NCBI GenBank assembly: GCA_024635795.1
Contig: JAGXIH010000027.1
Coordinates: 1 to 50,077, forward strand
Source of the DNA: Salegentibacter sp.
Lineage (GTDB): Bacteria > Bacteroidota > Bacteroidia > Flavobacteriales > Flavobacteriaceae
Direction: 5' to 3'
Length of the DNA stretch: 50,077 bases
The position numbers and the translations under genes are program-made. The notes under the pieces were generated by a model, which saw only the letters and a program-made list of their open reading frames with translations, ran no database searches and had not been told where the DNA came from. Of this stretch, positions 28,852-31,705 are shown piece after piece (position 1 is the first letter of the stretch; each line of letters begins with the position of its first letter).

Positions 28852-28887
28852 AGCCGGAAAAGTTAAATTCACTTTTTCGGCTTTTTT
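28852..28887 (+). terminator. Terminator after the second yceI gene
   Basis: AGCCGGAAAAGT and ACTTTTTCGGCT form a 12-base stem with one mismatch around a 7-base loop, followed by six T. It separates the yceI unit from the trp promoter just downstream. Confidence 0.88.
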
Positions 28888-28901: not shown

Positions 28902-28931
28902 TTGTTTTTAAAAATATGCTTTCTATCTTTG
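28902..28931 (+). promoter_or_regulatory. trp operon promoter (TTG-N19-TAnnTTTG)
   Basis: TTG at 28902-28904, exactly 19 bases, then TATCTTTG at 28924-28931 match the Bacteroidota housekeeping consensus. The predicted transcription start is about 28935-28937, directly at the leader-peptide ATG (28937). The leader may therefore be translated from a leaderless or nearly leaderless mRNA. Confidence 0.85.
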
Positions 28932-28936
28932 AAGCA

Positions 28937-28993
28937 ATGAAAAACAGAATAGCAAATACCTGGTGGTGGAATAATTTACGTCGAACGTCGTGA
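28937..28993 (+). CDS. trpL: trp operon leader peptide (three tandem Trp codons)
   Basis: An 18-codon frame reads MKNRIANTWWWNNLRRTS and ends in TGA. The three consecutive TGG codons are at 28961-28969. It lies a few bases after a consensus promoter and 30 bases before a Rho-independent terminator, and the trp biosynthetic genes follow. This is the classical arrangement for ribosome-mediated attenuation: when charged tRNA-Trp is scarce the ribosome stalls on the UGG run and downstream pairing changes. There is no room for a normal ribosome binding site between the predicted transcription start and the ATG. Confidence 0.88.
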   Translation: MKNRIANTWWWNNLRRTS

Positions 28994-29022
28994 AGTAACA
29001 CTGCTATAGTATAAAATCATAC

Positions 29023-29051
29023 AAAGGCTTGTCTCACGACAAGCCTTTTTT
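29023..29051 (+). terminator. trp attenuator (terminator hairpin plus candidate alternative pairings)
   Basis: AAAGGCTTGTC and GACAAGCCTTT form a perfect 11-base stem around TCAC, followed by T residues. Upstream, TTTACG (28975-28980) can pair with CGTGAA (28989-28994) with one G-U. GTCGTGA (28987-28993) is perfectly complementary to TCACGAC (29034-29040), which covers the terminator loop and first bases of its second arm. A ribosome paused on the Trp codons would cover the first of these strands and free the second. An 8-base-pair part of the terminator stem could still form, so the exact antiterminator is unproven. Confidence 0.8.
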
Positions 29052-29068
29052 CATTTAAAAATATAGTA

Positions 29069-29145
29069 GTCATTTCCGCGAAGGCGGAAATCTCTAAAGC
29101 AAAAAAATAAACTTGAAATTAGACTCCCTCCTTCGAGGGAGTGAC
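29069..29145. repeat. REP-like inverted palindrome pair upstream of the GIY-YIG gene
   Basis: The first element (29069-29094) starts GTCATTTCCGCGAAGGCGGA; the second (29121-29145) is AGACTCCCTC-CTTC-GAGGGAG-TGAC. Read on the other strand the second has the same plan as the first (GTCA, short arm, GAAG loop, arm, TCT), so the two face each other like the halves of a REPIN. The pair ends 14 bases before the GIY-YIG start codon. Confidence 0.78.
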
Positions 29146-29456: not shown

Positions 29457-29468
29457 AAAAATATATAA

Positions 29469-29539
29469 AGACTCCCGCCTTCGCGGGAGTGACAGGAAGA
29501 AATCAAAATAAATTAGATTCCCTCCTTCGAGGGAGTGAC
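29469..29539. repeat. Two REP-like palindromes between the GIY-YIG gene and trpE
   Basis: AGACTCCCGC-CTTC-GCGGGAGTGAC (29469-29493) and AGATTCCCTC-CTTC-GAGGGAGTGAC (29515-29539) are in the same orientation and separated by 21 bases. The second ends 13 bases before the trpE ATG. The compensating base changes in the two arms (CCCGC/GCGGG and CCCTC/GAGGG) show that pairing is maintained. Confidence 0.82.
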
Positions 29540-29552
29540 AAAAAGAAAATTA

Positions 29553-30947
29553 ATGTACGAACTAAAAACCACCCATAAAAAACTGCTGGCCGACACCATT
29601 ACCCCGGTGAGCGTCTACCTTAAACTGAGGGACAAATACCCCAATTCCCTGCTCCTGGAAAGCAGTGATTACCACGCCAGCGACAATTCTTTTTCTTATA
29701 TCTGCTGTAATCCTATAGCATCAATCAAGCTGCAGAATGAGGTGATCACGGAGGTTTTTCCCGATGGCAGTAAAAAAACCACCCCGATCTCTTCGGAAGT
29801 AAACATTCCCGAAAGGATCCAGGAATTCTCTAAGAGATTTAAAACTACAAACGGCAAATTCAAGTTCATCAACAACGGACTTTTCGGTTACATTGCCTAC
29901 GACGGGGTTAGATATTTCGAGGATATTGAAATTTCAAAAAAGGAAGGCGACCTTCAAATCCCCGACATTTATTACGCTGTCTATCAGAATATCATTGCGA
30001 TAAATCACTTCAATAACGAGGCTTACATCTTCGATCACAGCTACGACACAGAAAGCAGGATCGCCGAAATTGAACAGCAGATCAAAGTGCGCAATTTTGC
30101 CACCTATAATTTCACGCGCCAGGAAGCACCGATTTCCAATCTTACCGATGAAGAATTTAAGGAGAATGTGAAACTGGGCAAAAAACATTGCTTCCGCGGA
30201 GATGTTTTCCAGATGGTGCTCTCCCGCCGGTTTTCCCAGAAGTTCAAAGGAGACGAGTTCAACGTGTACCGGGCGCTTCGCAGCGTGAACCCCTCCCCGT
30301 ACCTTTTCTTTTTTGACTACGGAAGTTTTAAGATCTTCGGCAGTTCTCCTGAAGCACAGCTGGTGGTAAAAGATGGCCGGGCAGAAATACATCCCATCGC
30401 CGGAACCTTCAAACGCACCGGAAATGACGAGGAAGACGCCGAACTGGCCAAAAAACTCGCCGCCGACGAAAAGGAAAACGCCGAACACGTGATGCTGGTA
30501 GACCTTGCACGAAACGACCTCAGCCGCCACGGCAACGATGTGAAGGTGGAAAAATACCGGGAAATTCAGTTTTTCTCCCACGTGATTCATCTGGTGAGCA
30601 AAGTAACCGGAAAAAAAGATCCAAACACCAACACCATGCAGGTAGTAGCCGATACCTTTCCCGCGGGAACCCTTAGCGGCGCACCCAAACACAGCGCGAT
30701 GAAACTCATCGAAAAATATGAAAACGTGAACCGCGATGCATACGGTGGCGCTATCGGATTTATGGATTTTGAAGGCAACTTTAATCACGCGATCATCATC
30801 CGCTCCTTTGTGAGCAAAAATCACCACCTTCATTACCAGGCCGGGGCCGGCGTGGTTTCAGAATCGGTGGAAGAAAACGAATTACAGGAAGTATATAATA
30901 AACTAGGGGCTCTGACAAAAGCCCTGGAAATAGCGGAGGAAATTTAG
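29553..30947 (+). CDS. trpE: Anthranilate synthase component I
   Basis: This 464-residue enzyme converts chorismate and glutamine-derived ammonia to anthranilate with TrpG. Visible motifs are SLLLESSD near residue 30 (the LLES tryptophan-feedback site), FGSSPEAQL, HPIAGTFKR, DEKENAEHVMLVDLARND (metal and chorismate region) and GTLSGAPKHSAMKLI. I chose ATG 29553; an in-frame GTG at 29535 lies inside the palindromic repeat and is unlikely. It is the first enzyme gene of the operon, subject to the upstream attenuator and probably to feedback inhibition. A 69-base gap holding a GC-rich hairpin separates it from trpG. Confidence 0.96.
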   Translation: MYELKTTHKKLLADTITPVSVYLKLRDKYPNSLLLESSDYHASDNSFSYICCNPIASIKLQNEVITEVFPDGSKKTTPISSEVNIPERIQEFSKRFKTTNGKFKFINNGLFGYIAYDGVRYFEDIEISKKEGDLQIPDIYYAVYQNIIAINHFNNEAYIFDHSYDTESRIAEIEQQIKVRNFATYNFTRQEAPISNLTDEEFKENVKLGKKHCFRGDVFQMVLSRRFSQKFKGDEFNVYRALRSVNPSPYLFFFDYGSFKIFGSSPEAQLVVKDGRAEIHPIAGTFKRTGNDEEDAELAKKLAADEKENAEHVMLVDLARNDLSRHGNDVKVEKYREIQFFSHVIHLVSKVTGKKDPNTNTMQVVADTFPAGTLSGAPKHSAMKLIEKYENVNRDAYGGAIGFMDFEGNFNHAIIIRSFVSKNHHLHYQAGAGVVSESVEENELQEVYNKLGALTKALEIAEEI

Positions 30948-31607: not shown

Positions 31608-31693
31608 GTCATTTCCGCAGCCTGTACTGAATTTATTTCAGTAAGGGCGGAAACCCAAATAACAATTTAGACTCCCGCCTTCGCGGGAGTGAT
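31608..31693. repeat. REP-like palindrome pair between trpG and trpD
   Basis: GTCATTTCCGC opens directly after the trpG stop. Its partner arm GGGCGGAAAC follows a 28-base insert that itself holds TACTGAA/TTCAGTA (31625-31643). The second element AGACTCCCGC-CTTC-GCGGGAGTGAT (31669-31693) is in the opposite orientation and ends 12 bases before the trpD ATG. This mirrors the pair upstream of the GIY-YIG gene. Confidence 0.78.
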
Positions 31694-31705
31694 AAAGAAA
31701 TAAGT

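Follow-up and report, generated by a model that had tools for sequence, protein, structure and literature searches.

A Bacteroid-trp attenuator in Salegentibacter with its promoter next to the leader peptide start codon: a predicted leaderless subclass among the Flavobacteriaceae

Upstream of trpE in Salegentibacter sp., in a 50,077-nt stretch of contig JAGXIH010000027.1 (the window), lies a transcription attenuator of the Rfam family RF01692, Bacteroid-trp. Its promoter is fused to the start of the leader peptide, and transcription is predicted to begin at the AUG, giving a leaderless mRNA, or 1 nt before it. We put the probability of this reading, which includes a subclass of relatives with a fixed promoter-to-AUG distance, at roughly 0.85. 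The RNA family is known. What is new is its 5' end, which marks a promoter-fused subclass, predicted to be leaderless and well supported by comparison.

The element at 28917-29033 (+ strand) scores 71 bits with the RF01692 covariance model against a gathering cut-off of 49, and it is therefore of a known kind. An initial annotation had described a ribosome-dependent Trp attenuator before trpE; it did not recognize the Rfam family, an assignment that comes from our covariance-model scan. Its observation of attenuator parts before trpE is correct and confirmed, both by the RF01692 match and by the recurrence of the parts at conserved spacing in relatives. The parts are the following.

28852-28882, + strand: terminator-like hairpin, 12 pairs and a T-run, 3' of the preceding YceI-like gene (consensus scan)
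28902-28904, + strand: -33 TTG element (direct reading; 121 of 138 loci have a TTG ending 19-21 nt ahead of the -7 box)
28924-28931, + strand: -7 box TATCTTTG (direct reading; fits the Bacteroidetes consensus TAHHTTTG, PMC6847099)
28936-28937, + strand: predicted transcription start, the A of the ATG or 1 nt earlier (from the 4-5 nt spacing of Flavobacterium johnsoniae)
28937-28993, + strand: leader peptide ORF, MKNRIANTWWWNNLRRTS, 18 residues, stop codon at 28991-28993 (direct reading and relatives)
28961-28969, + strand: three tandem Trp codons (UGG), the WWW of codons 9-11 (direct reading)
28987-28993, + strand: antiterminator half GUCGUGA, containing the leader stop codon at 28991-28993 (comparison and folding)
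29023-29048, + strand: intrinsic terminator whose 11 pairs close a 4-nt loop, followed by a U-run, -15.6 kcal/mol (scan and folding)
29034-29040, + strand: antiterminator partner UCACGAC, the terminator loop and the first 3 nt of the 3' arm (comparison and folding)
29535-30947, + strand: trpE, the regulated gene (Pfam domains; the listed start is a GTG, and the in-frame ATG at 29553 is the likelier one)

The upstream hairpin shuts off the short promoter region, and trpE is followed by trpG, trpD and so on, identified by reading the sequences without a domain search. The promoter described earlier as lying about 5 nt before an ATG can be read directly, as TTG, 19 nt, TATCTTTG, a gap of exactly 5 nt (AAGCA) and the ATG at 28937, and the three tandem Trp codons of the leader ORF are present as claimed. 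Folding finds all of the structures that had been named: the stem UUUACG (28975-28980) with CGUGAA (28989-28994) is present in the minimum-energy fold, the alternative pairing of GUCGUGA with UCACGAC is complementary (duplex of -11.6 kcal/mol), and the terminator has its 11 pairs. The fold of 28937-29060 has a z-score of -4.7, and 0 of 200 shuffles were equally stable. The type of promoter, the RNA family and the promoters of the relatives all point to a flavobacterium as host.

Our view of the relatives rests on a family-level search, in which RF01692 was found in 177 of 249 genomes at E values up to 0.001, 155 of them above the cut-off. The locus set comprises 149 of 150 listed matches (30 taken automatically, including the window's own, and 119 by place), leaving out one match at a contig end and 27 weaker, unlisted ones; it is the best-scoring part of the 177 and not a random sample. 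A strict test demanded a TAHHTTTG box, an ATG and 2 or more Trp codons in the leader; 138 of the 149 loci passed. When the 11 failures were reread with relaxed boxes and GTG starts, 8 yielded a gap, and L056, L066 and L096, which are without an ATG or GTG leader start in place, were not counted; TGGTGG occurs in all 11, in 8 of them within a readable ATG or GTG leader. Locus L023 has two box-like strings, the nearer giving a gap of 4 (script) and the one in conserved context 18 (by eye); by our choice it is treated as not leaderless, and it was entered as 17 in the tree and in the trp/his comparison described below. In all 138 strict loci trpE lies downstream, with a median of 91.5 nt from the leader stop to the first trpE ATG. 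The script score finds a terminator in 135 of the 138 and no clear one in L089, L110 and L143, of which L110 is leaderless. The initial annotation had named loss of the Trp codons and terminator in relatives as a possible refutation; both are conserved.

How is the switch between terminator and antiterminator built? The antiterminator gives the best evidence for the mechanism. The motif NCGTGA is found in 127 of 135 leaders, as is CGTGA, and 128 of the 135 carry TCACG in their terminator, in the loop or the 3' arm. The distance from the last Trp codon to NCGTGA is 18 in 93 of the 127 leaders and 19 in 30 (17 in 3, 21 in 1). By comparison, the reading frame of the motif is 0, 1 or 2 in 94, 30 and 3 of these leaders, and the motif overlaps the stop codon in 66, lies 3' of it in 31 and falls within the ORF in 30. 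Because frame and stop position vary while the distance stays at 18-19 in 123 of the 127, the antiterminator motif is kept as RNA and not as peptide. A constraint on the peptide fails to explain the placement of the motif; a ruler between a stalled ribosome and the RNA pairing would explain it. A leader-terminator complement of at least 6 nt is found in 130 of 135 loci versus 232 of 2700 shuffles. In 5 of the 8 loci with a divergent motif the terminator matches, with coupled changes in L134 (TTGTCGCAAT with ATTGCGACAA) and L090 (GTCGTAAG with CTTACGAC) and a GTGAGA/TCTCAC pairing in L101, L116 and L127; the other three, L031, L115 and L128, retain just a 5-nt complement. The frame-independent antiterminator is, as comparative evidence, a clean demonstration of the Bacteroid-trp motif as a predicted RNA switch.

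Selection on the RNA itself, seen in the retention of NCGTGA outside the reading frame, would also suit a device that does not depend on the ribosome, in which a protein or an uncharged tRNA (T-box-like) drives the stem switch and the peptide is incidental. Against such a device stand the tandem Trp codons of the 138 accepted loci (where the script required them) and the TGGTGG of the 11 others, the fixed distance between Trp codons and antiterminator, Rfam scans without a T-box match, and the hisG loci, where 27 of 29 have a His-rich leader with at least 3 His in 5 codons. We regard it as very improbable. Two marks of a ribosome-dependent attenuator are found, a short ORF with tandem codons and a conserved, mutually exclusive terminator and antiterminator.

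For the ribosome-dependent attenuator, folding suggests how the switch might operate. If a ribosome is placed on the Trp codons and the RNA ends at 29040, the antiterminator gives the best fold (-13.4 kcal/mol over the exposed stretch); once the whole terminator has been made, the best fold contains the terminator, which also forms when the ribosome is absent or placed at the stop codon. The full terminator (-15.6 kcal/mol) is more stable than the antiterminator pairing (-11.6 kcal/mol) and outcompetes it once complete, and therefore the switch must act kinetically, during RNA synthesis. We infer the following course. A ribosome would load on the 5'-terminal AUG of the leader transcript. When charged tRNA-Trp is scarce, it would stall on the three UGG codons and break the stem that masks GUCGUGA, which would then be free to pair with UCACGAC once the polymerase reaches 29040, with the terminator 3' arm still incomplete, and trpE would be read. 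When Trp is ample, the ribosome would reach the stop codon within GUCGUGA and cover that sequence, and the 11-bp terminator would form.

The start of this transcript is predicted at 28936 or 28937 because many promoters of F. johnsoniae start transcription 4 or 5 nt after the -7 box (PMC6847099), and because the gap here is 5 nt. Among the 149 best-scoring loci the gap is exactly 5 in 31, 4 in 2 and 6 in 1; the 31 are 27 strict loci, 3 with GTG starts and 1 with a TATATTTA box. In the strict set of 138 a gap of 5-6 is found in 28 loci and another gap in 110, of which 76 have 14-22 nt; a gap of 7 comes next, in 8 loci, then one of 8 in 9 loci, and most non-leaderless loci have 7-22 nt. The 31 gap-5 spacers are filled by 25 different 5-mers, so it is the length of the gap that is kept, not its letters. 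Since a gap of exactly 5 recurs with such varied 5-mers while most others lie at 7-22 nt, selection appears to maintain a promoter-fused subclass, predicted to be leaderless, in about one fifth of the relatives examined. The loci with gaps of 14-22 nt have an A-rich stretch ahead of the AUG (65 of 76 have A at -9 and 60 of 76 at -4), for which the leaderless group has no room.

One might think that the window simply carries a standard Bacteroid-trp attenuator: the 5' UTR would be longer, with transcription from a true start further upstream or by read-through, and the 5-nt gap would be an accident of a short intergenic region. Gaps of 7-22 nt in most relatives favor this, as does the dominance of leadered mRNAs in F. 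johnsoniae and F. psychrophilum (PMC6847099, PMC9723704), which makes leaderless starts the exception: leaders exceed 10 nt in 87% of those F. johnsoniae transcripts that have a probable promoter (PMC6847099), leaderless mRNAs amount to 5.5% in F. psychrophilum (PMC9723704), and 5' UTRs shorter than 10 nt to about 3.7% in Bacteroides thetaiotaomicron (PMC7366714). An accident, however, accords poorly with 31 of 149 loci at exactly 5 against 2 and 1 at 4 and 6, with the 25 different 5-mers, or with the promoter TTG at the -33 place in 25 of the 28 strict leaderless loci, and the terminator-like hairpin at 28852-28882 would stand in the way of transcripts from upstream. We consider the longer UTR improbable, though less so than a ribosome-independent switch.

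The earlier suggestion of a leaderless attenuator thus stands in part. The start predicted on the AUG or 1 nt before it is kept in the window's neighbors on the TrpE tree, L047 of the same genus (gap 6) and L011 and L025 (gap 5). The claim that fell is that the missing ribosome binding site is unusual: mRNAs of the Bacteroidetes are naturally without Shine-Dalgarno sequences (PMC6847099), so its absence here is nothing special to the trp leader, and a leaderless trp attenuator was already described in Sinorhizobium meliloti (PMC7298713).

Do other promoters in these genomes lie as close to a start codon? A pattern of TTG-N19-TAHHTTTG followed by an ATG within 3-30 nt was run on four genomes, and the gaps were counted in the window's own genome (62% complete), where it gave 29 matches, two promoters being counted twice through a second ATG; the reversed control pattern gave 10. 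A gap of 5 occurs once among the 29, at the trp leader, and a gap of 6 once. Ordinary genes in the window and the locus flanks supplied 9 TTG-bearing promoters, none with a gap of 3-10, a number too small to use. The promoter match at G000:C21:168858-168896 (- strand) lies 6 nt 5' of an ATG and has a near-identical counterpart in a genome of the same genus (G031:C17:184643-184681); it is possibly a further leaderless gene. In L069 and L073 short palindromes lie between the promoter and the trp leader ATG, extending the gap to 34 and 40 nt.

The history of the gap was followed on a TrpE tree of 149 rows, 146 from the family set and 3 from a class-level search; six non-family rows with short TrpE pieces were lost, another non-family row, L154, is without a TrpE match, and L171, of the same family, mistakenly carries an outside-family label. 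The leaderless state (gap 4-6) occupies 35 of the 149 rows and needs at least 10 changes, versus at least 28 in 100 shuffled labellings, which suggests that it is conserved by descent with several switches, on a tree with many weakly supported branches. Because leaderless loci cluster on the tree, the 31 gap-5 loci represent far fewer independent cases, and the root is weak, so gain and loss of the state look alike. The largest leaderless clade, of 27 rows and weakly supported, has a gap of 5 in 21, 4 in 1 and 7 in 5, and its 21 gap-5 members carry 19 different 5-mers. Outside the family 15 loci were examined, drawn from the 17 non-family genomes among the 33 of 396 that had a match in the class-level search, and none has a gap of 4-6: 10 gaps are 9-30 nt by script, 4 about 7-11 by eye, and 1 locus has no visible box.

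Other amino-acid leaders offer a comparison. In L198 (contig C13 of the window's genome, leader start near 1161 on the gene's strand) the His leader MRIIQLHHHHFYPYAQAR stands before hisG and begins 8 nt after a TAAGTTTG box; a structured element without an Rfam hit has been reported before hisG of F. psychrophilum (PMC9723704). The his gap is 6-10 in 12 of 13 leaderless-trp genomes compared. A genome-wide rule for leaders was considered and set aside: sorted by trp gap (up to 6) and his gap (up to 10), 12 of 25 genomes are short in both and 11 are long in both, so that 23 agree, and there is 1 of each mixture, but just 2-3 of the contrasts are independent, too few for a test. The his gaps were read by eye with relaxed boxes, and 4 of the 29 hisG genomes were omitted (2 without a His leader, 2 without a strict-set trp gap). 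Upstream of a prephenate dehydratase gene, Phe-rich short ORFs (e.g. WNGFYFYFFF) were found by script in 29 of 29 loci (L235-L263), often behind a TAnnTTAG-type box. In the part of these loci read by eye, the leaders begin about 10-19 nt after the box and look leadered, which argues that the leaderless form is not general. The branched-chain (ilvD) leaders form a mixed list.

We tentatively picture, at somewhat less than even odds, that in part of the family the sensing ORF is locked to its promoter and transcription begins with the first letter of the start codon. Ribosomes would load on the RNA as soon as its first bases leave the polymerase, timing transcription and translation together. 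The lineage would have switched several times between this arrangement and a leadered one, and in the same genomes the his leaders would be nearly leaderless too.

How do these findings relate to known systems? Bacteroid-trp (Weinberg et al. 2010, PMC2864571) is the same sequence and structure family, with the same place before trpE, tandem Trp codons and a terminator next to it, and it has been noted in F. psychrophilum (PMC6414381). The main text of the 2010 paper names the motif in a single table entry and uses none of the terms 'leader peptide', 'attenuation' and 'tryptophan', and we found nothing there on promoter or transcript start. The rnTrpL RNA of S. meliloti trpL (PMC7298713) is a trp attenuator too, and its 5' end falls on the leader peptide's ATG, as is predicted for the window; the leader described here is therefore not the first of its kind. 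The S. meliloti RNA differs in belonging to an Alphaproteobacterium, in its 14-aa peptide and in a leaderless start that is experimentally established, where ours is predicted. The cysteine-rich uORFs proposed as candidates in mycobacteria (PMC4633059) are likewise leader-type ORFs with proposed attenuation, in bacteria rich in leaderless mRNAs, but they concern cysteine and Actinobacteria, and their authors call the proposal speculative. Leader-peptide attenuation has likewise been proposed upstream of amino-acid operons of F. psychrophilum (PMC9723704), a leaderless attenuator being unmentioned in the part of that report on which we draw. In the open-licence literature searched we found no description of a leaderless Bacteroid-trp leader. 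How ribosomes of the Bacteroidetes find start codons on mRNAs without Shine-Dalgarno sequences is unsettled, and an attenuator that depends on translation of its leader, found within one family in leadered and predicted leaderless natural versions, offers a convenient way to test leaderless initiation in the phylum.

The trp operon of the window also carries a possible insertion. Between the trp terminator and trpE lies an ORF for a GIY-YIG nuclease (PF01541, 29160-29456), with inverted palindromes at 29069-29096 and 29466-29493 that are 82% complementary. More than 200 nt separate leader and trpE in 5 of the 138 loci; in three of them, the window's own, L069 and L093, a GIY-YIG ORF with like palindromes sits at this position, L036 has a decayed GIY-YIG ORF, and L094 has other repeats. 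The ORF and its palindromes look like a mobile, palindrome-bounded cassette; none of 9 other GIY-YIG copies examined has the same palindrome nearby. In a genome of the same genus (L295, 1492-1794, - strand) a 75%-identical GIY-YIG ORF with like palindromes lies between trpG and trpD, and the trpG-trpD gap of the window holds a palindrome (31674-31694) and no GIY-YIG ORF, as if the cassette had moved within the trp operon.
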